DNA of 40,361 nt from Planctomycetota bacterium (GTDB taxonomy: Bacteria > Planctomycetota > Phycisphaerae > FEN-1346): positions 1 to 40,361 of the forward strand of contig JAPLMM010000090.1 in the NCBI GenBank assembly GCA_026387035.1, written 5' to 3'. Of this stretch, positions 22,047-35,284 are shown one piece after another. Position numbers and translations under genes: made by a program. Below the pieces are notes generated by a model. The model was not told the DNA's origin and did no database searches. It saw only the letters and a list, made by a program, of their open reading frames with translations. How positions within the stretch are numbered: position 1 is the stretch's first letter; every line of letters begins with the position of its first letter.

Positions 22047-22172
22047 ATGAACCGCCGGCAATTCTCCAAGGGGGTGGTCGTGCTCGCGGGCGACTCGAAC
22101 AGGCGACCTGCGGTTCAGGAAACCTGTTCTAGCCACAACCCGCCACGGGAAACGTTCTTTTCTCCCGCATGA
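22047..22172 (+). pseudogene. Truncated Tat-signal gene start
   Basis: An excellent ribosome site (AAAGGAGG, six bases spacing) precedes MNRRQFSKGVVVLAG, a twin-arginine signal start of the kind used by planctomycete sulfatases and oxidoreductases. After about 15 codons the hydrophobic core stops abruptly, exactly where the tRNA-like sequence begins (about 22085). The remaining 26 codons read antisense through that sequence and the end of pepP and look random. It is most simply the 5' stub of an exported-protein gene cut by recombination. Confidence 0.55.
22083..22131 (-). pseudogene. Degenerate tRNA-Arg(CCT) fragment, 3' part
   Basis: On the minus strand this reads from the D-arm end through anticodon and T arms (GGTTTCCTGAACCGCAGGTC, then TGTTCGAGTC). 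It matches the intact tRNA-Arg at 37155-37231 at about 37 of 41 positions over the anticodon-to-T region and is in the same orientation. The 5' half is absent and the T stem has lost pairing, so it is not a working tRNA. The pepP stop codon lies inside it. Confidence 0.65.
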
Positions 22173-23529
22173 CGGCCTCGATATCCTTCAATTCCAGCGG
22201 CGCAGCGGCGGTGAGATTTTCGATGCCGCTTTCGGTGACGGCCACCGTGTCCTCGACGCGGATATAGAGCTTCTCTTCGGGCACCCACATCTGCGGATCA
22301 ACGGCAAAAACAACGCCCGGGCGCAGCGGCCCCGCGTGGTAATCCCCCACATCATGGACGGCCATGCCGACGGCGTGCGAGAGGTGGCCCTTGAACTCAA
22401 GGGTCCGCCGCGCGGCACTCTCGTAGATCGGTTTCGAGAACCGCGTCCTGCCGATCACGTCGACCATCTCGGCCGCGGCCTCGGCCAGGACCTGGTCCGC
22501 GGTGGCGCCGGGCCGAATGCGGCGCAGCAGCACCTTATGATACTCCACCATGAACCCATAAAGTTCACGCTGCCTGGGCGCGTAAGTCCCGTTGACCGGG
22601 CACATGCGGCCGATGTCGCTCGTGTAGTACCCGTAGTCGGGGGCGGTGTCCACGAGGACGAGGTCGCCGTCGGCCAACTCGCAGTTGTTGCGGAAGTAAT
22701 GGGCGTTCCACGCGTTCGCGCCGCCGGCGATAATGTGCCGATACCCAAGCCCCTGCGCCCCGTGGGCCAGGTAAACGCGGTCGGCGATTGCGCCCAAATG
22801 GCACTCGACAACGCCCGGCCTCGTCGCCCGCATCGCTTCTGTCACCGCCATCGCGGACAAGAGGCCCGCCCGTCGCAGGAGGTCGATCTCGCGCGGGCTC
22901 TTGATCGCACGCAACGTATCCAGAATCGGCGACAGGTCGCGGATCTCGACCGCCGGCAGCCGCGACCGCACGAGGCCGATGAGATACTGCTCGCGGCTCG
23001 GCCGTTCGTCCCACGGGTCGGCGGCTACGAGTTTGTCCGACCGGATCAGTTCGTCGCGGCTGCCCTTCGGGCCCTCGGCCGGAGCGTGCGGCGTGTAAAG
23101 TGCGGATGCCGCCTTGAGGTGCTCGGCGAGCAACTCGCTCCCATAGACCGCGTCGACGCCGGTGAATCGTCGGATGAGGTCAGCGTCTTCCGCGGCGAGT
23201 GCCGCACCCTCGGCGCCCGCTCGCTCCGGACGATGCGGAAGATAGAGTGCCGTGGTTCGATTCGCTCCCGAAAGAAGCAGGTACGCCTGCGGCACTTCCA
23301 CGCCACAGCAGTAGTAGAACTCATTCGTCTGCCGGAAGACCTCGAAACCGCGGACGGGCGGAGCGCCCTGCAGGAGCGCGTGTGCCCCGGGGCCGATGGC
23401 GTCGAAGATCTTCGCCCGCCGCGCCCTAAACTCTTCCGGCGGGAAATCGGCCTGGAACAGCGAACGCTCCGGCGCGTCGCCCGCGCGGGCGATGCGGTGC
23501 GGCTCAATCGATGGGAATCGGCGGGCCAT
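22129..23529 (-). CDS. pepP: Xaa-Pro aminopeptidase (M24B, AMPP type)
   Basis: Removes the N-terminal residue from peptides whose second residue is proline (often also hydroxyproline). The 466-residue protein has the AMPP N-terminal domain (EFRARRAKIFDAIGPGAHAL; FRQTNEFYYCCGVEVPQAYL) and the pita-bread domain: SPREIDLLRRAG, HIIAGGANAWNAHYFRNN, the DxD-type pair in VLVDTAPDYGYYTSDIGRM, the metal His in GHLSHAVGMAVHDVGDYH and the Glu in IRVEDTVAVTESG. The usual EPG metal glutamate is Asp here (AVDPQMW), a conservative but notable change. The start at 23529 follows AAGGACG. It is divergent from the hydroxyproline dehydratase operon, 176 bp away, and so probably serves the same substrate stream. 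Its stop codon lies in a tRNA remnant. Confidence 0.92.
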   Translation of the reverse strand: MARRFPSIEPHRIARAGDAPERSLFQADFPPEEFRARRAKIFDAIGPGAHALLQGAPPVRGFEVFRQTNEFYYCCGVEVPQAYLLLSGANRTTALYLPHRPERAGAEGAALAAEDADLIRRFTGVDAVYGSELLAEHLKAASALYTPHAPAEGPKGSRDELIRSDKLVAADPWDERPSREQYLIGLVRSRLPAVEIRDLSPILDTLRAIKSPREIDLLRRAGLLSAMAVTEAMRATRPGVVECHLGAIADRVYLAHGAQGLGYRHIIAGGANAWNAHYFRNNCELADGDLVLVDTAPDYGYYTSDIGRMCPVNGTYAPRQRELYGFMVEYHKVLLRRIRPGATADQVLAEAAAEMVDVIGRTRFSKPIYESAARRTLEFKGHLSHAVGMAVHDVGDYHAGPLRPGVVFAVDPQMWVPEEKLYIRVEDTVAVTESGIENLTAAAPLELKDIEAVMREKRTFPVAGCG

Positions 23530-23632
23530 CTCTCGTCCTTTCTCCAATCGCCGCAATTCACGCAACAAGCCGTGCGGTCCGTTGCGGCAGCGTATTGTAC
23601 CACCGTGCGGAACCCTGCGGACACCAAATCGA

Positions 23633-23661
23633 TTGTCGGCGCAGCACGAGGAGTATATAAT
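23633..23661 (+). promoter_or_regulatory. Promoter of the activase-hypD operon
   Basis: TTGTCG (23633-23638), 17 bases, TATAAT (23656-23661). The leader is about 35-40 nt, with GAGGGGA before the ATG at 23706. It lies in the 176-bp divergent region with pepP. No operator palindrome is evident. Confidence 0.65.
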
Positions 23662-23705
23662 ACCCCCGTGGCCGCCGCTTGCGCGGCCGCCAAGAGGGGA
23701 CGTTT

Positions 23706-24605
23706 ATGGAAACCGGCCTCGTTTTCAACATCCAGCGGTATTCCATCCAGGACGGTCCCGGGATTCGGACGACCGTGTTCCTGAAAGGGTGCCCCATGGA
23801 CTGCTGGTGGTGCCACAACCCCGAAAGCCAGGACCCCGAGGCCGAGATCGTCGTCATCGAGGGCCGTTGCATGCGCTGCGGCGAGTGCCGGAAGGCCTGT
23901 CCGCAAGAAGGCGCCGGCGCACCGAAGACTCCGGACGGCAATCGGCGATGCGTCCGGTGCGGCGCCTGCGTCACGGCCTGCCCGACGGGCGCGCGGCAGA
24001 TGGTGGGCCGGCCCATGACGGTGGCGGACGTGGTCGCCGAGGTCCTCAAGGACCGCGTGTTTTACGAGGAGTCCGGCGGCGGCGTGACCTTCTCCGGCGG
24101 AGAGCCGCTCCTCCAGCCGGGGTTCCTGAAGGCCGTCCTCGCGGCCTGCCGCAGCGCAGGTCTCCACACGGCCGTGGACACCTGCGGTTTCGCCCCGAAG
24201 GAAGACCTTCTGGCCATCGCGCCGCTGGCGGACCTTTTCCTCTACGACCTCAAGTTCATGGACGAGGCATCGCACGTCCGGTACACCGGCGCGTCGAGCG
24301 CCTGCATCCTGGACAACCTGCGGGCCTTGGGCCGGGTCCACGAGAACATCTGGATCCGCGTACCCATCATTCCGGGCATCAACGACAGCGCCGACCATCT
24401 GGAGGCGTTAGCGCGGTGCGCGTCTTCCCTATCGGGCGTGCGCCAGGTAAACTTGCTTCCGTATCACGAGGCGGGGGCCTACAAGTCCCCGCGCGTGGGC
24501 AAGGCGTATCGGCTTGAGAAGATTGCGCCGCCGTCGCCGGAGCACATGGAGGATGTGGCGGCGAAGTTCCGAGGCCATGGTCTCAACGTCAAGATAGGCG
24601 GGTAG
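23706..24605 (+). CDS. Glycyl radical enzyme activating enzyme (radical SAM)
   Basis: Uses S-adenosylmethionine and a 4Fe-4S cluster to abstract hydrogen from the glycine of its partner enzyme. The 300-residue protein shows the radical SAM triad Cys29-x3-Cys33-x2-Cys36 (KGCPMDCWWCHNPE), then an inserted ferredoxin domain with two clusters (CMRCGECRKACP 55-66 and CVRCGACVTACP 82-93) as in activases of dehydratase-type enzymes, the SAM motif TFSGGEPLLQP, and the conserved DLKFMD and RVPIIPGIND. The start at 23706 follows GAGGGGA. The stop is 4 bp before hypD, so the two are co-transcribed and the partner is certain by position. Oxygen-sensitive. Confidence 0.95.
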   Translation: METGLVFNIQRYSIQDGPGIRTTVFLKGCPMDCWWCHNPESQDPEAEIVVIEGRCMRCGECRKACPQEGAGAPKTPDGNRRCVRCGACVTACPTGARQMVGRPMTVADVVAEVLKDRVFYEESGGGVTFSGGEPLLQPGFLKAVLAACRSAGLHTAVDTCGFAPKEDLLAIAPLADLFLYDLKFMDEASHVRYTGASSACILDNLRALGRVHENIWIRVPIIPGINDSADHLEALARCASSLSGVRQVNLLPYHEAGAYKSPRVGKAYRLEKIAPPSPEHMEDVAAKFRGHGLNVKIGG

Positions 24606-24609
24606 CGTC

Positions 24610-26973
24610 ATGACAGACCGGACAGCCAGGCTGCGGCAGGCGAGCCTCGACGCGAAGCCCTGCATCGCCGAGGAGCGAGCGGTCCTCGTGACCGGGTTCT
24701 ATCAGGCCAACGAGGGCAGGTTCTCCGCGCCGGTCATGCGGGCGCAGTGCTTCCATCACCTGTGCAGGCACAAAACGATCTACCTGGGCGAGGATGAACT
24801 CATCGTTGGCGAACGCGGGCCGCAGCCCAAGGCCGTGCCGACGTACCCGGAACTGACCTGCCACAGCCTCGAGGACCTCAGGATCCTCAACTCGCGCCCC
24901 AAGACCAGTTATGCCGTCTCCGACGAGTGCGTGAAGGTCTACCAGAAAACCATCATCCCCTACTGGCGCGGCCGCAGCATGCGGGACCGGCTCTTCCAGG
25001 CGATGTCGGAGGAGTGGCGGGCCGCCTACGACGCGGGCATCTTCACGGAGTTCATGGAACAGCGGGCCCCCGGCCACACGGTCCTCGACGACAAAATCTA
25101 CCGCAAGGGGATGCTGGACTTCCAGCGTGACATCGCCGGCGCGATTGCCGCGATCGACTTTCTCGGCGATCCTGAGGCCTGGGCGAAGCGCGAGCAGTTG
25201 CTGGCGATGAACATCGCCTGCGATGCCGTCCTCCTCTTCGCCCGGCGCCATGCGGCGCTCGCCCGCGAGCAGGCCGCTCGCGAGTCCAACCCGGTGCGAA
25301 AGGCGGAACTCGAAAAGGTCGCCGACGTGTGCACGCACGTCCCGGCCCACGCGCCTCGCAATTTCCACGAGGCCCTGCAGTACTACTGGTTCTGCCACCT
25401 GGCGGTCATCACGGAACTGAACGGCTGGGACTCGTTCAGTCCCGGTCACCTCGACCAGCACCTCCTGCCCTTCTACCGCAAGGGCCTGGAGGACGGGACG
25501 CTCACGCCCGAGAGGGCGCGGGAACTCCTGGAGGCGTTCTTCGTCAAGTTCAACAACCATCCTGCCCCGCCCAAGGTGGGCGTGACGGCGGCCGAGAGCG
25601 GCACGTACACGGACTTCGCCAACATCAACATCGGCGGGCTCCTGGCGGACGGCTCGGACGGCTCCAGCGAGATCTCCCACCTCCTGCTGGACATCGTCGA
25701 CGAGATGCACCTCGTGCAGCCCAGCAGCAACCTGCAACTCGCGCGCAAAACCCCCGACGCCCTCCTCCACCGCGCCCTGTGCGTCATCCGGAAGGGCTAC
25801 GGCTTCCCGTCGATCTTCAACACCGACGCCGTCATCAAGGAGCAGTTGCGGCAGGGCAAGACTCTGGAGGACGCCCGGGCCGGCGGGTGCAGCGGATGCG
25901 TGGAAACCGGCGCCTTCGGCAAGGAGGCGTACATCCTCACAGGGTACTTCAACCTCGTGAAGATCCTGGAACTCGCGCTTCACGACGGGCTCGACCCGCG
26001 CACTGGAAAGCCGTTGGGCCTTCGGACGGGGGCGCCGGGGTCGTTCGCCTCGTTCGACGCCCTCTTCGCCGCGTTCCGCAAGCAACTCCACCACTTCATC
26101 GAGGTCAAGATCCGGGGCAACCAGGTCATCGAACAGATGTATGCCACGTGGATGCCGGCGCCCTTCCTTTCAGTCATCACCGATGACTGCATCCGCAAGG
26201 GCAAGGACTACAACGCCGGCGGCGCGCGGTACAACAACACCTATATCCAGTTCGTGGGGATTGGCAGCCTGACGGACTGCCTGGCGGCCGTCAAGCAGAT
26301 GGTCTTCGATGACAAGGCCATGCCGCTCGGCGATCTCGTGAAGGCGCTCGATGCGAACTTCGAGGGCAATGAGATCCTCCGCCAGCGCCTCGTCAACCGC
26401 ACCCACAAGTACGGCAACGACGACGATTACGCGGACGACCTTGCGGTCCAGGCCTTCGAGAGCCTCTTCGAGGAGGTCGACGGGCGGCCCAACACCAAGG
26501 GCGGCCGGTACCGCGTCGAAATGCTCCCGACCACGAGCCACGTCTACTTCGGTTCCGTCACGGGCGCGATGCCGGACGGCCGCAAGGCGGGGCTCCCGCT
26601 GTCGGAGGGGATCTCGCCCGTTCAGGGCGCGGACCGGCACGGCCCCACGGCCGTTTTCAAGTCGGCGGCCAAGATGGATCACATCAAGACAGGCGGGGCG
26701 CTCTTGAACATGAAGTTCACGCCGGACCTCCTGGCCGACGAGGACAGAATCGTGAAACTCGGGCACATGGTCCGGGCCTACTTCAGGATGAACGGCCACC
26801 ACGTCCAGTTCAACGTGGTGCGGGCCGAGACGCTCCGCAAGGCCCAGGCGGAGCCGGAGGCCTACCGGGACCTCATCATCCGCGTGGCGGGTTACAGCGA
26901 CTACTTCTGCGACCTGGCGCGGGAACTCCAGGAGGAGATCATTTCGCGGACGGAGCACGGGGCGATGGCGTAG
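24610..26973 (+). CDS. hypD: Trans-4-hydroxy-L-proline dehydratase (HypD-type glycyl radical enzyme)
   Basis: Dehydrates trans-4-hydroxy-L-proline to 1-pyrroline-5-carboxylate in anaerobes. The 787-residue protein has the PFL-like barrel, the thiyl cysteine Cys430 in GGCSGCVETG and the C-terminal radical motif RVAGYSD with Gly761. From memory, C. difficile HypD uses F152, H160, D278, S334, D339, C434, E436, T645 and G765. Here Phe148, His156, Asp274, Ser330, Asp335, Cys430, Glu432, Thr641 and Gly761 occupy the same contexts, all at a constant offset of -4. This separates it from pyruvate formate-lyase (adjacent Cys pair), choline lyase and glycerol dehydratase. Expected length is about 789. 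The pyrroline-5-carboxylate reductase that often accompanies it is not in the window. It converges with the peptide transporter operon. Confidence 0.88.
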   Translation: MTDRTARLRQASLDAKPCIAEERAVLVTGFYQANEGRFSAPVMRAQCFHHLCRHKTIYLGEDELIVGERGPQPKAVPTYPELTCHSLEDLRILNSRPKTSYAVSDECVKVYQKTIIPYWRGRSMRDRLFQAMSEEWRAAYDAGIFTEFMEQRAPGHTVLDDKIYRKGMLDFQRDIAGAIAAIDFLGDPEAWAKREQLLAMNIACDAVLLFARRHAALAREQAARESNPVRKAELEKVADVCTHVPAHAPRNFHEALQYYWFCHLAVITELNGWDSFSPGHLDQHLLPFYRKGLEDGTLTPERARELLEAFFVKFNNHPAPPKVGVTAAESGTYTDFANINIGGLLADGSDGSSEISHLLLDIVDEMHLVQPSSNLQLARKTPDALLHRALCVIRKGYGFPSIFNTDAVIKEQLRQGKTLEDARAGGCSGCVETGAFGKEAYILTGYFNLVKILELALHDGLDPRTGKPLGLRTGAPGSFASFDALFAAFRKQLHHFIEVKIRGNQVIEQMYATWMPAPFLSVITDDCIRKGKDYNAGGARYNNTYIQFVGIGSLTDCLAAVKQMVFDDKAMPLGDLVKALDANFEGNEILRQRLVNRTHKYGNDDDYADDLAVQAFESLFEEVDGRPNTKGGRYRVEMLPTTSHVYFGSVTGAMPDGRKAGLPLSEGISPVQGADRHGPTAVFKSAAKMDHIKTGGALLNMKFTPDLLADEDRIVKLGHMVRAYFRMNGHHVQFNVVRAETLRKAQAEPEAYRDLIIRVAGYSDYFCDLARELQEEIISRTEHGAMA

Positions 26974-27022
26974 CGCCAACGACAATCCGCCCCGCGCCCT
27001 TCTCGGCCACGAAGATGCCGCT

Positions 27023-29089
27023 TCATGACTCCTTGTCGCCGTACAGGTGGCATCGCACCATCCGGCCCCCGCCGAGATCGGTCTCGCCCGGGTAGAGTTC
27101 CCGGCAGACGGGCATCCCCTCCGGGCAGCGGAGGTGGAAGTGGCACCCGGGGGGCGGGCGGCTCGGCGACGGCACATCGCCCTCCAGGCGGATCCGCCCG
27201 CCGCGCCCCGGCGTCTCCTGCCCGGGAATCGCCGAGAGCAGGGCCCGCGTGTACGGGTGGCAGGGCTCGTCGAAAAGACTTTCCGCCGGGCTCCGCTCGA
27301 CGATCCGCCCGAGGTACATCACCGCCACCTCGTCCGCCATGTATTCGACGATGCCGAGATCGTGCGTGATGAAAAGGTACGTGAGCCGCTCGCTTCCCGC
27401 GCCCTGGAGCCGCCTCAGAAGGTTCAGGATCTGTGCCTGGATTGAGACGTCCAGGGCGCTGGCAGGTTCGTCGAGGACCAGGAACTTGGGCTCGACCGCG
27501 AGGGCCCGCGCGATGCCGATCCGCTGGCGCTGGCCGCCCGAAAATTCGTGCGGGTAGCAGCCCAGCGCATCGGCCTTGAGGCCCACGCCCTCCAGGATCC
27601 TCCTCGTCCGGTCGCGGCGCTCCTCGCGGCTGCGCCCGATGCCGTGGACCAGCATCCCTTCCTCGACAATAGCCTGGACCGTCATCCGCGGGTTGAGTGA
27701 GGAGTACGGGTCCTGGAACACGATCTGGGCCTCGCGGCGGAACTGCCGCAGCGCTTCGTCATCCAGCGCCGTGACCTCGCGTCCGCCCAATCGCACGGTG
27801 CCCGAGGTCGCCGGGAGCAGGCGGATGAGGGTCTTGCCCAGCGTCGTCTTGCCGCAGCCGGACTCCCCGACCAGCGCGAGCGTGGTTCCGCGGCGGATGG
27901 CAAGGTCCACGCCGTCGACGGCCTTGACGTGCCCGACGACCCGCTGGAAGACCCCTTTGCGGATCGGAAAGTGCTTCACGACCTGGCGGGCCTCCAGAAG
28001 CAGGCCGTCCCCGCATCGCCGCGAGGCGTCCGCCGGCGCTCGGGCCTCGGCAGATTCCTGGGATGCCGGCGGCGAAACCGTAACCGGCGGCGCGATGGGC
28101 CCGGCGTACAGGTGGCAGGCGACCGCGTGGCCGGGCTCGATCTCTTGGGGGCGCGGCTCAAGGTCCCGGCACGGCCCGAACGCGTGCGGGCAACGGTCTG
28201 AGAACCGGCAGCCGGGCGCGTAGTCCTTTGGGTCAGGCACCGTGCCCTGGATGGTCTGGAGTTGCCGCCCCCGCTGGGCCCGACTGGGCCGGCACCGCAG
28301 CAGCAACTCGGTGTAGGGATGGCATGGCCGGGCGAAGAGGGAGTCCGTGGGGGCCATTTCCACGATCTTCCCGGCATACATGACGGCCACGCGGTGCGCC
28401 ATCTCCGACACGACCGCCAGGTCGTGCGTGATGAAGAGGATGGCCGTTCCGAGTCTGCGCTGGAGGTCCCGCAGGAGGTCCAGGATTTTCGCCTCCACGG
28501 TCACATCAAGCGCCGTGGTCGGCTCGTCGGCGATGAGCAACTCCGGCCGGCACGCAAGCGCCATGGCGATCATGACCCGCTGCCGCATCCCGCCCGAGAG
28601 TTGATGCGGGTACTGCGAGAGCCGTTGGAGCGGGTCCGGCATGTCCGTCAGCCGCAATGCCTCGACGGCCTCCTTGATCTGGGCCCCTCGTCCGCGAGCG
28701 AAGGCCGATGATTGCCGCACGCCTTCCGGCCGCCCGTGCCGGATGGCCTCCAGGAGTTGCGTCTTGATGGACAGCACGGGATTCAGGCTGGTCATCGGTT
28801 CCTGGAAAACCATCGCCATGTGGCGTCCGCGGACGCCGCGTTTCTCGGGCCCGGACATACGCGTGACATCGCGGCCCCCCAAGAGGATCTCCCCGCCCGC
28901 CACGTAGCCCGGCCGCGGAATGAGTTGCATGACCGAGAGGGCGGTCAGCGACTTGCCGCAGCCCGACTCCCCGACGAGACCGAGCGTCTTTCGGCTCTCG
29001 ATGGCAAACGAAACGCCGTCGATCACCTTCCGGGGCTGGCCGGTGGTGCGGAAGTACGTCCGCAGATCCCTGACTTCAAGCAAGGCCAC
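27023..29089 (-). CDS. Peptide ABC transporter, fused ATP-binding subunits (OppD-OppF)
   Basis: A 688-residue protein carrying two complete ABC ATPases that are normally separate. Domain 1 (OppD-like): Walker A GESGCGKS (40-47), signature LSGGMRQ (164-170), Walker B LLIADEP, and a C-terminal oligopeptide-binding extension with CRFSDRCPHAFGPC. Domain 2 (OppF-like, from about 364): Walker A GESGCGKT (408-415), signature FSGGQRQ (516-522), Walker B FLVLDEP, and a similar Cys cluster CHFHLRCPEGMPVC. The linker at about 332-360 is Pro/Ala-rich. Every motif is intact. It starts at GTG 29089, AGAGGGA upstream, two bases after the OppBC stop. It energises import of peptides delivered by OppA. Confidence 0.92.
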   Translation of the reverse strand: MALLEVRDLRTYFRTTGQPRKVIDGVSFAIESRKTLGLVGESGCGKSLTALSVMQLIPRPGYVAGGEILLGGRDVTRMSGPEKRGVRGRHMAMVFQEPMTSLNPVLSIKTQLLEAIRHGRPEGVRQSSAFARGRGAQIKEAVEALRLTDMPDPLQRLSQYPHQLSGGMRQRVMIAMALACRPELLIADEPTTALDVTVEAKILDLLRDLQRRLGTAILFITHDLAVVSEMAHRVAVMYAGKIVEMAPTDSLFARPCHPYTELLLRCRPSRAQRGRQLQTIQGTVPDPKDYAPGCRFSDRCPHAFGPCRDLEPRPQEIEPGHAVACHLYAGPIAPPVTVSPPASQESAEARAPADASRRCGDGLLLEARQVVKHFPIRKGVFQRVVGHVKAVDGVDLAIRRGTTLALVGESGCGKTTLGKTLIRLLPATSGTVRLGGREVTALDDEALRQFRREAQIVFQDPYSSLNPRMTVQAIVEEGMLVHGIGRSREERRDRTRRILEGVGLKADALGCYPHEFSGGQRQRIGIARALAVEPKFLVLDEPASALDVSIQAQILNLLRRLQGAGSERLTYLFITHDLGIVEYMADEVAVMYLGRIVERSPAESLFDEPCHPYTRALLSAIPGQETPGRGGRIRLEGDVPSPSRPPPGCHFHLRCPEGMPVCRELYPGETDLGGGRMVRCHLYGDKES

Positions 29090-29091
29090 GG

Positions 29092-31344
29092 TTAGTCCCT
29101 CTCTCCGCGGATGCGCAGGCTGGGGTCCAAAGCGTCCCGAAGCGCATCGCCGAACAGGTTGGCCGGCAGCACGAGCGCGAACATGGCCACGAACGCCGCC
29201 GCCAGGTTCCACCAGATGACCGGGTCGCGTCCGAGTTCGCCCCGGGCCTGGTTGATCATCGAGCCCCAACTGGAGGTGTCGTGCCCGACGCCCACGCCGA
29301 TGTAACTCAGGACCGCCTCGGCAAGGATCAGGTCGCTGAACCGCAGCACGACGGTGATCAGCACGAGGTGCATCAGGTTCGGGATCACGTGCCGGGCGAG
29401 CACGCGGAATCGCGAGACCCCCAGCGCGAGGGCCGCCTGAACGTACTCCTTCTCGCGCAGTTTGAGCGTTTCGCCCCTGAGCACCCGGCATAAGCCGACC
29501 CAGCCCGTCAGGCCCATCACGACGCACAGCAGCGGCAGGCGCTCGTCGCTGTTGCTGGCCTCTGAGAAGACCAGCATGAAACAGACCACCAGGAGAATCC
29601 ACGGGATCGACGACAGCGTGGTGTAGAGGAACTGGACCGCATCGTCGATCCAGCCGCCGAAGAAGCCCGCCAGCACGCCGAAAAAAATGGCGAACGGGAT
29701 GGCAATGAGCGTCGTCAGACCGCCGACGACCAGTCCCGTGCGGACGCTCTTGAGGGTCATGGTGAAGACGTCCTGCCCGACCTTGTCGGTTCCGAAGAGG
29801 TGCCAGCCGGGGTAATTCAAAGGCGGGTAGTCGTGGCGGCGGACGATCCGGCCGTCAACCTCCTCCTGGAGCGTCTCCTTCGTGAAGAGCCTGGCCGCGA
29901 GCGGCTCCGAATAGGTCTTCTCCTGTTTTTCGGATAGCGGCGCGCAGATGCGGTCGAGCACGGAGCGCGGCTCCGAGAGCACGGTCGCGGTCGCCGTGGT
30001 TCCATCAGCGCTGTTTCCGGCCGGGCGCTCCACGTCGCGCCACGTTACGCTGTCCAGCGCCGCGATGAGGATGTACACGCCAAGGACCGCCAGCGACACC
30101 TTCGCAAGACGATTCCGGCCGACTTGGCGCCAGGCGCTCCGCCAGAGTTCGCTCCCGCGTGCGTAAAGGAGGAACGCCGCGAACGCCCCCAGCGTGGCGG
30201 CGAGTATGCCGTTGCTGAAGATCACCGTGCGCAGCCCCGGGGTCGCTCTGAGCGCCACCGCCGCGCGCCAAATTCCGAGGGCGCCCGCCGCCAGGAGCAG
30301 GAGGGCGCCAAGGATTTTCGCGACGTCGCGCCAGGACGGGCGGCCGTAGAGGCTCCGCGTGTCGCCGGCGCCCAGCGTGATGCGCGGATCCACGAGGGTG
30401 TAACTGAAGTCCGTCATCAGGAGGCCCGCGATATAGAGGATCGCCCCGATGAAGGTCATCGACCGGATGACCGCGAAGTCCTGGGCGTGGATGGCCTCCA
30501 TCGTCATGCTGCCCAGGCCGGGGATCGAGAAGAACGACTCCATCAGGAGGCTTCCCAGGAAGAGAAACGGGATGACCATCACGGCGTTCGTGAGGATGGG
30601 AATCATCGCGTTCTTGAGGACATGGCGGAAGAGCACGGCGCCTTCACCGAGGCCCTTGGCGCGGGCGGTCCTCACGTAGTCCTTCTCGATCTCCTCCAGA
30701 ATAATCGTGCGGTAGTAGCGGACCGACCCGCCGATTCCCGCCACCACGCCGATGATGACCGGGAGGAAGACGAACTTTGCCGAGGACGCACCCCAATCGA
30801 AGCCGGAGATCGGGAACAGCCGCAGCCACTTGGCGAAGACAAACTGCCCGCCGATGATGTAGAACAACGTCGAAATCGACATCAGGAGCACGCACGCAAC
30901 CGTGCCCCAGCGGTCAAGGTACGCCCCCCGGCAGAGCGCAATGATGAGGGCCGTGGTGATGTAAATCGCCATGCCGAGGACAAACGTGGGGACCGCAATG
31001 GCCAGGCTCGGCCCCATGCGGCGGCGGATCTCCTGGCCGATATCGCGGTCCGTCACGTCCGACCGTCCCAGGTCGAATACCACGAGCCTGGCGCATTTCC
31101 GAAAAAGCAACGTAGAGGTGATTTGGGGGAGGCCTTGTTCCTGTGCGTTGAAAAACACCGGCAAGTCATAGCCGTGGGCGCGGACCCACGCCGCAACCGC
31201 CTCCGGCGTGGCCTTCTGGCCGAGGGTCTTGCGGGCCATGTCCTCGGGTTTGTTGGCGACGAAGAACAGCAGGAAGGTGATGACAACGATGCCCAGGACA
31301 ATCGGCACGGCGTACAGCAATCGGCGTATGAGATACGCGACCAT
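29092..31344 (-). CDS. Peptide ABC transporter, fused permeases (OppB-OppC)
   Basis: A 750-residue membrane protein joining two permeases that are usually separate genes. The first third is OppB-like: MVAYLIRRLLYAVPIVLGIV, the coupling (EAA) region RTARAKGLGEGAVLFRHVLK, and the end SYTLVDPRI near residue 330. Two extra hydrophobic helices (VAKILGALLLLAAGALGIW and the FSNGILAATLGAFAAFLLYA segment) bridge to an OppC-like half beginning near GRNRLAKVSLAVLGVYILIA, with YPGWHLFGTDKVGQDVF, permease helices, the EAA-like QAALALGVSRFRVLARHVIP and the end LFGDALRDALDP. An even number of bridging helices keeps both halves in correct topology. It starts three bases after the oppA stop. Confidence 0.92.
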   Translation of the reverse strand: MVAYLIRRLLYAVPIVLGIVVITFLLFFVANKPEDMARKTLGQKATPEAVAAWVRAHGYDLPVFFNAQEQGLPQITSTLLFRKCARLVVFDLGRSDVTDRDIGQEIRRRMGPSLAIAVPTFVLGMAIYITTALIIALCRGAYLDRWGTVACVLLMSISTLFYIIGGQFVFAKWLRLFPISGFDWGASSAKFVFLPVIIGVVAGIGGSVRYYRTIILEEIEKDYVRTARAKGLGEGAVLFRHVLKNAMIPILTNAVMVIPFLFLGSLLMESFFSIPGLGSMTMEAIHAQDFAVIRSMTFIGAILYIAGLLMTDFSYTLVDPRITLGAGDTRSLYGRPSWRDVAKILGALLLLAAGALGIWRAAVALRATPGLRTVIFSNGILAATLGAFAAFLLYARGSELWRSAWRQVGRNRLAKVSLAVLGVYILIAALDSVTWRDVERPAGNSADGTTATATVLSEPRSVLDRICAPLSEKQEKTYSEPLAARLFTKETLQEEVDGRIVRRHDYPPLNYPGWHLFGTDKVGQDVFTMTLKSVRTGLVVGGLTTLIAIPFAIFFGVLAGFFGGWIDDAVQFLYTTLSSIPWILLVVCFMLVFSEASNSDERLPLLCVVMGLTGWVGLCRVLRGETLKLREKEYVQAALALGVSRFRVLARHVIPNLMHLVLITVVLRFSDLILAEAVLSYIGVGVGHDTSSWGSMINQARGELGRDPVIWWNLAAAFVAMFALVLPANLFGDALRDALDPSLRIRGERD

Positions 31345-31347
31345 CCT

Positions 31348-33660
31348 CTACGCCTCCCTCAGGCATCTGGCGGCCGCCCGCAAGGCCGGCAGGCTGGCAA
31401 GCAGAAGCGCCCCCATGAGCCCGATCACCGGCCACCACTCGGGCCGGTTGTGCTCGCGGCGGTAAGCGGTGCGTGCGGCCGCATCAATGCGGCGGTACTT
31501 CGCCTTGTTCAACGCCACCGCGTGCGGGTAGGCGTTTTTGAGCCAACCGTGGTAGAGTTCCATTGTCATAGGCTCGTAGCGGAAGATCCACGGGGCATCT
31601 TCGCGGAGGATGCCGACCATCTCGTCGATGATCGCCAGCCGCTCCGGCGTGTTCTCCATGCTTCGCATCCTGGCGAAAAGGGCGTCGAAACGCTCGCTGC
31701 GGTAATTGGTGACGTTTTCGCCGCCGGAGGCCACCTTCCCGTTGGGCCCGTACAAAAGGGCCAGGAACGTCTCGGGGTCGGGGTAATCCGCGATCCAGCC
31801 CCAGGCCAGGGCCTGAAAGTTCCCCGAGCGGACCTTCTCCTGGAACCGGTTGAAGTCGGTAACCTGGATGTCAAGGCCGATGCCCAGTTTGTCAAACTGC
31901 TTCTTGAAGAACGTGAGCAAGGTCCTGCTCTCGGGCGTGGGTTCCGTTGCGGCAAAACGGATGACCAGACGCTGCCCGCCAGGGCCGAACCCGTTGGGAT
32001 AACCGGCCTCCGCGAGGAGTCTTTTCGCCTCCTCCAGCGGGCGGCGGACGGCACCCTGGCGCTTTTCATCCCACCGGTAGACGACCGGATTGATCCCCTC
32101 CCGGCCTTCCCGGTGCCCGAAGATACCCAGCGGGATAGGGCCCTGCGCGGGAATCCCCTGGCCGTTGGCGAAGATGGTGATCTCCTCTTCAGAGTCGAAG
32201 GCCATGCTGATCGCCTGCCTCAATTTACGTTGCTCGGGAGCGTATCCGCCGACGACGGCGTCGTCCATGTTGAACCCCAGGTAGTAGGTATGGCACGGAT
32301 ACGAGGTCACCAGCCGGATGCCGCGCGCGGCCATCTCGTCCGAGAGCGAGAGGTCTCCGCGGATCGTGAGCGTGACGGCCTGATTGAACACATCGCTGGT
32401 GATCGTGAGAACATCGTAGTAGCCCTGCTGAAACTTGTTCCACAGCGGGATCAGTTCCTTCTCCAGCCGCATCACGACGCGGTCGGCCATGGGCAGGCGC
32501 CGGCCGACGTCCTCGAGCATTCCCGCCGACGCCATCTCGTCGTAAGCCCGGCGGCCCTGCGCGTCGCCCTCGGCGGGCTTCGGCAGGTCCGGGTAGCGTT
32601 CGTCGCGGAAGTTCGAATTCCGCTCGAAGACGATCTGGTTGGTCGGGTCGAATTCGCGAAGGACATACGGCCCGGTGCCGACAAGGTTCTTGTCGAAGAC
32701 GATGCTGCGCTCCAGAAGCACCCGCTGGTCAAAAAACTCAACCGCCTCGGGTGGAACCGGCGAGAAAAAGGGCATGGCCATCCAGTAAAGAATCTGCGGG
32801 TACGGGTGCCTGAGGACCACCTCGAACGTGTACGGGTCCACCTCGCGCACAAAAGGAAATGAATCCGCTGCGCCCGCGTCATCCAGACGGATGGGATTAT
32901 AGCGTTCGTCCTGCTCCTGGTTGTAGAAGCGTCCTGCGGCGGCTTGGCGCGCCAAGCGCTCGCGCTCCAGCGCGAGCCGCAATGATTCCTGGTATTCCCG
33001 CATGCCCAGCAGGTAGTCCGCCAGCACGCTGAGGATGGGGCACGCAAGCCTCGGATCGGCCAACCTGCGGATGGCGTACACGTAATCGCCCGCCGCGAGT
33101 TCGCGCGTGGCGGCTGGTTGAATGTCCCAGACCGTCCGGACGTTCCGCACGTCGTTCTCAGTGAGGCGGCGATTGGCTTCAACGAAACACGGATGGTCTT
33201 GATACCGGATGCGGGGCGCCAGGCGCACCGTGTAGACGATCGCATCGACCGTCTTCCCCTGGAAGACGACCTTCCGCGGCTCGGGCCGGGGGATATCCGC
33301 CGCGGTCAGCGGGGCGAGCGCATAGGGACGCTTCAGGTAGTGGAACTCGAGCGGCGGCTCGAGCACGTTGCTCATCATCACGACGTCGTCAAACGGATAC
33401 GCCTGCGCCGGGTCCAGGTGCCGGGGCTCCTCGATAAACGTGGTGTACAGGATGCTCTGCCCCTCTTCGGCCTCGGGGTACGGAGAGTTGCAGCCGGCCG
33501 CCGCCAGCAGGGCCAGGAGTGCCGCACCCCGGCACGCCGCAGGACCCGCCGCTCTCAGGAGTGCCATCGCTCCGATGTGAAACGCCCCAGCGGTGTGCGA
33601 ACTGGAAGGCCCGCGCATCACGGGACCGATCACGTGGTTGAAAATGCTGACCGCTTTCAT
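31348..33660 (-). CDS. oppA: Peptide-binding lipoprotein (SBP family 5) with serine-dehydratase-like N-terminal leader
   Basis: The substrate-binding component of the adjacent peptide transporter. The mature protein follows the family 5 plan: LAAAGC lipobox, LDPAQAYPFDDVVMMSNV, VGTGPYVLREFDPTNQIVFE, YYLGFNMDD, LRQAISMAFD, AKRLLAEAGYPNGFG, and ALAWGWIADYPDPETFL; a second membrane helix ends it (VIGLMGALLLASLPALRAAA). From the ATG at 33660 the first 30 residues (VSIFNHVIGPVMRGPSSSHT) are the N-terminus of L-serine dehydratase, fused in frame. The ATG at 33567 (MALLRAAGPA) would give a clean lipoprotein signal peptide and is probably the functional start, though its ribosome site is poor. It leads the operon oppA-oppBC-oppDF. 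Confidence 0.88.
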   Translation of the reverse strand: MKAVSIFNHVIGPVMRGPSSSHTAGAFHIGAMALLRAAGPAACRGAALLALLAAAGCNSPYPEAEEGQSILYTTFIEEPRHLDPAQAYPFDDVVMMSNVLEPPLEFHYLKRPYALAPLTAADIPRPEPRKVVFQGKTVDAIVYTVRLAPRIRYQDHPCFVEANRRLTENDVRNVRTVWDIQPAATRELAAGDYVYAIRRLADPRLACPILSVLADYLLGMREYQESLRLALERERLARQAAAGRFYNQEQDERYNPIRLDDAGAADSFPFVREVDPYTFEVVLRHPYPQILYWMAMPFFSPVPPEAVEFFDQRVLLERSIVFDKNLVGTGPYVLREFDPTNQIVFERNSNFRDERYPDLPKPAEGDAQGRRAYDEMASAGMLEDVGRRLPMADRVVMRLEKELIPLWNKFQQGYYDVLTITSDVFNQAVTLTIRGDLSLSDEMAARGIRLVTSYPCHTYYLGFNMDDAVVGGYAPEQRKLRQAISMAFDSEEEITIFANGQGIPAQGPIPLGIFGHREGREGINPVVYRWDEKRQGAVRRPLEEAKRLLAEAGYPNGFGPGGQRLVIRFAATEPTPESRTLLTFFKKQFDKLGIGLDIQVTDFNRFQEKVRSGNFQALAWGWIADYPDPETFLALLYGPNGKVASGGENVTNYRSERFDALFARMRSMENTPERLAIIDEMVGILREDAPWIFRYEPMTMELYHGWLKNAYPHAVALNKAKYRRIDAAARTAYRREHNRPEWWPVIGLMGALLLASLPALRAAARCLREA

Positions 33661-33960: not shown

Positions 33961-35049
33961 TCAGGCCACACAGGGGTTACAATCTTTTTTCGTGCAGTTG
34001 GCAAGACCGATCACACGGTCAGCGGCACCGTAATAAAGCAGCCATTCGCCCTTGAAGTAAACCAGCCCGTTGGAGACCGTTGTGCGGCCGATGAATCCCT
34101 GCTTCTCCCAGTCATGCTCCGGGTAGAGGAACGGCTCGTCCTGGTGTTTCAACACGGTCGTCAGGTCGTTGCGGTCGATCAGGGCCTGGCGAAGCACCCA
34201 GGCGCCGAGCGAAGGGTGCCCCCCTTGCGTCATCAGCAGGATGCCATCGTCACGCAACAGAGCGATGGCCCCGGCTTCGCGCCCTCCCCCCGGCCAGACC
34301 GCTTTGCCGGCCGGCGTCCAGTCGATCAGGTTCTCGCTCCAAGCCAGCGCGCAAGGATGCGTGTAGTACATCCAGTTCTTGCCCTTGATCTTCGCGGCGA
34401 TCAGGCGGTTGCCTTGGAGCCGGGAAACCACCACTCCGCTCCGCGATCCATAGACCTTCTCCGGCGCACCCTTCCGGAAGGCTGGCCCGTGCTTGGTCCA
34501 GTGATATAGATCGCGGGACGTTGCCACGGACATGGTGTCCCGCTTGCCGTTCCAGGTGGTGTAGTTCACGTAGTAAGTGCCATCTTCGCCCTCGATGATG
34601 TGGAGGTCCTCGCAACCACCCTCCCACTCGTACTCCTTCCAGGGGTCGTTGTCCGGATAGAGGACCGGCTTCGCATGTCGGGTGAAGTTTATGCCGTCCT
34701 CACTATAGGCCAGACCTATGCGACAAGTTCTTCCCCACTTGAGATCCGGGCTCTTGTCGTCCGCCCGGTAGAGCAAATAGACCTTACCGTTTCGCACGAC
34801 GGCAGCCGGATTGTACACGTTCTGCTCCTCCCACCGGACTTCCTTACCCCGGATGGGGCATTGAAATCTGGAATCCGGCGTCGGCTGCAGGATCGGCTCT
34901 TTCCGTTTGACAAAGGGCCCCATATCCCAGCCGTCCCTGTCGGCATTGCCCAACGCGGAGGACGGGTTAACGATTGGCACAGCAACGGCGGCGGTCGCCG
35001 CGACCGCCGTTCTTAGAAAATCACGGCGTGTCGGGTTGTGGTTGCCCAT
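33961..35049 (-). CDS. Tat-exported GH130-like glycosidase/phosphorylase
   Basis: A 362-residue protein with a twin-arginine signal (TRRDFLRTAVAATAAVAVPI, RR at 8-9), so it is folded before export. The five-bladed beta-propeller pattern of GH130 is visible: VYNPAAVVRNGKVYLLYRAD, CRIGLAYSEDGINFTRH, EGGCEDLHIIEGEDGTYYVN with TTWNG, CALAWSENLIDWTP, then GEWLLYYGAADRVIGLA. GH130 enzymes act on beta-mannosides by phosphorolysis or hydrolysis. The usual EDPR segment is EDLH here, so the catalytic mechanism is uncertain. Export argues for a hydrolase, as phosphate-using members are usually cytoplasmic. The start follows GGAGGT. It overlaps the 3' end of an ornithine cyclodeaminase remnant. Confidence 0.85.
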   Translation of the reverse strand: MGNHNPTRRDFLRTAVAATAAVAVPIVNPSSALGNADRDGWDMGPFVKRKEPILQPTPDSRFQCPIRGKEVRWEEQNVYNPAAVVRNGKVYLLYRADDKSPDLKWGRTCRIGLAYSEDGINFTRHAKPVLYPDNDPWKEYEWEGGCEDLHIIEGEDGTYYVNYTTWNGKRDTMSVATSRDLYHWTKHGPAFRKGAPEKVYGSRSGVVVSRLQGNRLIAAKIKGKNWMYYTHPCALAWSENLIDWTPAGKAVWPGGGREAGAIALLRDDGILLMTQGGHPSLGAWVLRQALIDRNDLTTVLKHQDEPFLYPEHDWEKQGFIGRTTVSNGLVYFKGEWLLYYGAADRVIGLANCTKKDCNPCVA

Positions 35050-35284
35050 GGATTCTACCTCCGAGGATCAAGGGGTGAAGAACGCCCCGCGGCTGCGCCG
35101 TTTCGATGTGCGTCCGCGCCGGAGCGACGACCTCTCCGACAGAAATCTGCCGGAAGGCTTCTTTCATGGCGGCCACGGCCTCTCGCATGGGCAGCGCCTG
35201 CACCACATCGCGTGCCGAAAGGAACCGAAGTAATTCGGGGAACGCTATACTGATTCCGGTTTTCCGATTCCCGTCCACACCCAT
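35021..35284 (-). pseudogene. Ornithine cyclodeaminase / mu-crystallin N-terminal fragment
   Basis: From ATG 35284 (after GGAGGAAGGA) the frame gives FLSARDVVQALPMREAVAAM, then KEAFRQISVGEVVAPARTHI and ETAQPRGVLHPLIL. This is the N-terminus of the ornithine cyclodeaminase/mu-crystallin family, whose members handle ornithine, proline-ring imines and related amino acids. Only about 70 of some 320 residues remain; the NAD-binding domain is missing and the frame runs into the GH130 start, whose ribosome site it now contains. It may still be translated and couple to GH130. The 47-bp gap to the sulfatase stop suggests a joint transcript. Confidence 0.7.

Follow-up and report, generated by a model that had tools for sequence, protein, structure and literature searches.

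Collagen and the proteins of plant cell walls are rich in hydroxyproline, but most work on how it is degraded without oxygen concerns gut Clostridia supplied with the free amino acid. The residues important in HypD of Clostridioides difficile, a glycyl radical enzyme that dehydrates trans-4-hydroxy-L-proline, are known from mutagenesis or structure (PDB 6vxc/6vxe; Backman et al. 2020, PMC7077986). In this study, we analysed a 40,361-nt stretch of DNA from a Planctomycetota bacterium of the class Phycisphaerae (assembly GCA_026387035.1, contig JAPLMM010000090.1, positions 1 to 40,361; hereafter the window), in which a locus at 22047-33660 encodes HypD, a radical S-adenosylmethionine (SAM) activase, an M24 metallopeptidase and an oligopeptide-type (Opp) ABC importer. 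The genes form a real and conserved cluster whose HypD is genuine. We consider, with a probability of about 70%, that they work together as a module by which hydroxyproline-containing peptides are used anaerobically. Sequence comparison supports the predicted HypD chemistry, the pairing with the activase, the importer architecture and the conserved linkage.

The 787-residue protein scored 1238.3 bits against the HypD model NF043068 (cut-off 1100), the second-best family being the general PFL2 subfamily at 638 bits. Against solved structures, it aligned without gaps to HypD 6vxc at 1012 bits, while the next glycyl radical enzyme reached 509. Residues F152, H160, D278, S334, F340, C434, E436, Y450, T645 and G765 of the C. 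difficile enzyme are all present at an offset of -4, the constant offset that the first-pass annotation of this DNA had reported for the active site, and D339 is likewise kept. In a 64-row tree whose outgroups were glycerol dehydratase and other glycyl radical enzymes of the class (some of them long-branched), the HypD branch had an SH-aLRT of 99. The window protein lay inside an environmental HypD clade (support 100), apart from the clostridial part containing C. difficile, and grouped with proteins from three sister genomes, G021, G037 and G051 (SH-aLRT 99), next to Verrucomicrobiota. The phylogenetic placement that the annotation had proposed as a check therefore stands as far as nesting among HypDs is concerned, whereas IslA, CutC and PflB were compared outside the tree, by score, and were far lower. 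By score, structural match, residues and tree, the protein is a true HypD, as first proposed, and its predicted dehydration of trans-4-hydroxy-L-proline is strongly supported.

HypD of 84% identity occurred in four of the six genomes sampled from the family, namely the window genome (G000), G021, G037 and G051, and these four genera all keep the M24 gene and/or opp beside hypD, in varying gene orders. The opp, M24, activase and hypD genes are collinear in G021; hypD converges with opp in G051, as in G000; and G037 has an oppF fragment followed by M24, activase and hypD. A different HypD (60%), without opp, is present in G011, and HypD was not found in G044 (75% complete). By their titles, one sister genome comes from a fen and another from a deep lake cast. 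Orthologues of the M24 peptidase at 71-72% identity adjoin hypD in G021 and G037; those of OppA reach 70% in G051 and 58% in G021; and those of OppDF (66-79%) stand beside hypD in G021 and G051, with a C-terminal fragment in G037. Among the 150 genomes of the class sample, M24 at >70% identity was found only in G000, G021 and G037, always next to hypD, and fused OppBC, scored as one frame matching both halves, was confined to G000, G021 and G051, each time adjoining hypD. The neighbourhood is thus not unique to this contig, partial sets being kept in three sister genera, and the physical tie of HypD to an importer and a proline-type peptidase, as first described, holds in the family genomes. 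Neither opp nor M24 can be taken as a general trait of planctomycete HypD loci, most of which in the class are bare activase-hypD pairs. GH130, sulfatase and GH5-like genes were rejected as cluster members, since they are not shared beside hypD, and the genes at 19.9-21.8 kb, considered as TonB/ExbBD, proved in the scan to be a TPR protein, an unknown and a PHP-type phosphatase.

The gene positions (Table 1) agree with the earlier map except at the start of oppA. The start codons of pepP and the activase gene are divergent and exactly 176 bp apart (23529/23706), activase and hypD are spaced by 4 bp, and hypD converges across 49 bp with oppDF-oppBC-oppA, an arrangement that had been read correctly. 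The genes are not a chance observation, because the matches are long and strong and their adjacency is conserved. The promoter candidate agrees with the consensus at 10 of 12 positions and fits in position, 45 bp before the activase ATG; two sigma-70-like candidates were observed versus 1.3 expected in shuffles, so that the candidate is weak alone.

Table 1. Features of the hypD locus, in window coordinates
Feature	Position	Strand	Basis or detail
M24 metallopeptidase, aminopeptidase P type (pepP)	22129-23529	-	PF00557 E=5e-40; PF05195 AMP_N E=4e-9
Sigma-70-like promoter candidate, activase-hypD	23633-23661	+	TTGTCG-17-TATAAT
Radical SAM glycyl-radical-enzyme activase (HypD activase)	23706-24605, ATG 23706	+	TIGR02494
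hypD, 787 residues	24610-26973	+	NF043068
OppD-OppF fused double ABC ATPase	27023-29089, stop at 27023	-	Two ABC_tran and two oligo_HPY domains
OppB-OppC fused permease, 750 aa	29092-31344	-	Two BPD_transp_1 domains and OppC_N
OppA-type substrate-binding lipoprotein (SBP_bac_5)	31348-33567	-	PF00496 E=2.3e-49; ATG 33567; lipobox Cys 33492-33490
L-serine dehydratase 5' remnant, in frame with oppA	about 33535/33568-33660	-	TIGR00719 E=7.5e-9

The oppA frame is open to 33729, a good lipoprotein signal peptide begins at the ATG listed in Table 1, and the residues encoded from 33660 onwards in the direction of the gene correspond to the beginning of L-serine dehydratase (its first ~33-41 residues). 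OppA therefore most likely starts at that ATG and does not extend to 33660, as had been annotated. The dehydratase stretch would lie outside the mature importer and looks like the trace of a deletion that fused two genes; no further trace and no intact copy of L-serine dehydratase was found in the rest of the window genome. With an SBP_bac_5 lipoprotein, two permease domains and two ATPase domains carrying oligo_HPY, the Opp/Dpp architecture is complete. OppA gave distant matches to OppA, DppA and HbpA structures, and binding proteins of the Opp/Dpp family also bind nickel, haem and opines. The system is likely to be a dedicated importer of hydroxyproline peptides.

The activase scored above the cut-off of TIGR02494; against NF043069 (HypD activase) it reached 371 bits, below the cut-off of 425, yet this was its best match among the activase families. 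The peptidase carries both the AMP_N and M24 domains, and its closest PDB match is Escherichia coli aminopeptidase P (AMPP). The metal ligands of that enzyme, D260, D271, H354, E383 and E406, are identical in the window protein at four of five positions, and Glu383 is replaced by an Asp that is conserved in its subfamily. While the domains and four ligands are thus shared with E. coli PepP (PDB 1a16/2bww), the score against the PRK10879 PepP equivalog was 191 bits versus a cut-off of 465. Because of the Asp and this score, we term the peptidase AMPP-like: the AMPP-type assignment made at first reading stands for domain content and best structural match, but not for the fifth ligand or the equivalog score. 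No signal peptide was seen, and the protein is read as cytosolic. We propose that it releases Xaa from Xaa-Pro/Hyp peptides. In G021 (L039:3874-7647), the M24 frame is continuous with one that, by eye, resembles a GH95-type glycosidase (1258 aa), so that glycosidase and peptidase may be fused there. The peptide source may be collagen-like or plant, and this frame gives no more than a hint of glycosylated plant proteins.

In the proposed pathway, OppA with fused OppBC and OppDF would import short peptides, and the cytosolic M24 peptidase would remove the residues preceding Pro or hydroxyproline. The radical SAM activase would switch on HypD, which would convert free trans-4-hydroxy-L-proline to (S)-1-pyrroline-5-carboxylate; the product could be reduced to proline by ProC or oxidised to glutamate. 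ProC is encoded elsewhere in the window genome (261.6 bits), and no proC was found beside hypD in the sampled loci (tblastn E<=1e-10). Peptide import and cleavage is the best explanation because the linkage is conserved in the family and peptidase/opp neighbours recur in other phyla. Several observations weigh against it. Within 10 kb, most HypD loci lack both opp and M24; most of opp has been lost in G037 while hypD was kept, so that the importer is not indispensable; opp is split from hypD by strand in G000, so that co-regulation is not required; one AMPP metal ligand is changed, as described above; and relatives of the M24 peptidase at 45-48% were also present in G047 and G053, genomes in which HypD was not found, which indicates that the subfamily is not exclusive to hydroxyproline. 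It is conceivable that HypD and its activase are self-sufficient and that Opp and M24 serve general peptide scavenging, lying nearby through the loose clustering of amino-acid catabolic genes. The bare loci, the convergence of opp with hypD in G000 and G051, and the merely distant resemblance of the window OppA to the known OppA, DppA and haem-binding proteins would all fit such an arrangement. However, fused OppBC and the close M24 were found in the class only adjoining hypD, the linkage outlives rearrangement in four genera, and other phyla show comparable groupings built with unrelated peptidases. We consider general scavenging unlikely, though it deserves to be taken seriously.

HypD outside gut Firmicutes is common. 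It exceeded the cut-off in 19 of the 150 class genomes, and relatives at 60-84% were found in Verrucomicrobiota, Acidobacteriota, Geobacteraceae, Chloroflexota, Aminicenantes, Gemmatimonadota, Bacillota and one Lokiarchaeota bin. The novelty first ascribed to the arrangement was thus overstated, all the more as hypD-M24-opp groupings occur in Anaerolineales and Clostridiaceae: Anaerolineales bacterium SKW59 (L100) has oppB, oppC, M24, activase and hypD, and Clostridiaceae bacterium M1-B18 (L140) has activase, hypD, a regulator-like gene, PepQ, oppA, B, C, D and F and a further PepQ. In Aminicenantes, an M24 gene lies downstream of hypD. The peptidases beside hypD in Chloroflexota, Clostridiaceae and Aminicenantes are unrelated to that of the window, and opp is present in two of these cases. 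The L100 and L140 loci share with the window hypD-activase accompanied by M24 and opp genes, there on the same strand, but they were probably assembled independently, since their M24 subfamilies differ and their Opp proteins are unfused and distant. Across 98 hypD loci (two duplicates) with flanks up to 10 kb, about 1.2 Mb in total, we counted 16 M24 genes in 15 distinct loci versus about 1 expected from a background of about 0.8 per Mb (122 M24 genes in 41 planctomycete genomes, one phylum only); the enrichment is approximate, two of the 16 being weak or 9 kb away (L143, L129) and the search model having been seeded from some of the loci. On the HypD tree, the M24-neighbour label changes at least nine times. 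Given these data, we tentatively suggest, at slightly less than even odds, that a hydroxyproline-peptide module of importer, proline-type peptidase and HypD has been assembled repeatedly in anaerobes of several phyla, and that the sisters in the window's family extend it to a second isomer via AcnX. If so, environmental HypD bacteria would take in most hydroxyproline as peptides, not as the free amino acid. Among the sampled loci, that of Desulfosporosinus sp. FKB (L126) contains a tandem of two glycyl radical enzymes and two activases, the canonical HypD being preceded by a HypD relative of 35% identity.

Two sister genomes add to the cluster an AcnX gene (PF04412 E=1e-139), followed by a gene for an OCD-family protein resembling pyrroline-2-carboxylate reductases. 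The AcnX family acts on cis-3-hydroxy-L-proline (PMC5144071), and the characterised enzymes are single-chain (PMC5144071, PMC8184944). A frame between AcnX and the OCD gene of G021 resembles, by eye, the small swivel subunit, so that two chains would make up this AcnX, which may or may not share that substrate. Searches of the window genome for AcnX and for a complete OCD gene found neither. The window has at 34994-35221 (minus strand), between GH130 and sulfatase, a broken N-terminal OCD/mu-crystallin stretch with an internal stop; the intact OCD gene that follows hypD in the sisters is only 39% identical to it. Outside Planctomycetota, HypD and AcnX are paired independently in Bacillota Soudan_17 (L138), where an AcnX gene (48%) immediately follows hypD and an OCD gene lies close by.

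Fourteen of the 19 class HypDs form one clade (support 100) with the motif GGPSGCV[T/E]xSAFGKESC. In nine of them (L034, L036, L037, L041, L042 and L045-L048, from G056, G109, G121, G011, G098, G133, G099, G062 and G068; L112 not counted), Glu436 is replaced by Thr (CVT), with all other hydroxyproline-contacting residues kept; Glu is present at 436 in all other HypD relatives examined. The E436Q variant of C. difficile HypD is inactive (PMC7077986). The CVT proteins lie above the NF043068 cut-off and are hence HypD by NCBI's model, but judged by this residue they possibly have an altered substrate or mechanism. One further gene (L049, G055:C137:592-2939), otherwise HypD-like (CVE), is split by a stop or a change of frame that falls between residues 627 and 628.

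This active-site change in a related clade, together with the AcnX of the sisters, raises the question of whether the window enzyme might use another hydroxyproline-like substrate, such as another isomer or a betaine, which the cluster would then process. This is very improbable, as the residues that bind and process trans-4-hydroxy-L-proline in 6vxc are all unchanged in the window HypD and its score exceeds the equivalog cut-off. Least credible of all is that faulty assembly of a fragmented metagenome bin created the neighbourhood. Although the genome is in 317 contigs and the remnants of genes found at 33.57-33.66 kb and 34.99-35.22 kb indicate rearranged sequence, the composition is uniform, and the recurrence of the gene set in three further genera, whose genomes were assembled independently, refutes an artefact for the hypD-opp and hypD-M24 pairs.

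In summary, the link of HypD with an importer and a peptidase in bacteria of sediments, peat and lakes points to an uptake route for hydroxyproline-rich protein debris, and its conservation assigns testable functions to three uncharacterised genes. The window HypD belongs to the same family as that of C. difficile, with all active-site residues identical and the activase adjacent in both; a proC copy adjoins hypD in C. difficile (PMC9044972), whereas in the window proC lies elsewhere and the M24 peptidase and Opp importer adjoin. The aerobic lhp clusters of Pseudomonas and Agrobacterium are likewise hydroxyproline catabolic clusters with ABC transporter genes, and have AcnX and a pyrroline-2-carboxylate-reductase-like gene in common with the sister genomes (PMC5144071). 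However, lhp employs an epimerase and a dehydrogenase for trans-4-hydroxyproline (PMC5144071), while the window encodes a glycyl radical dehydratase and an oligopeptide-type importer.
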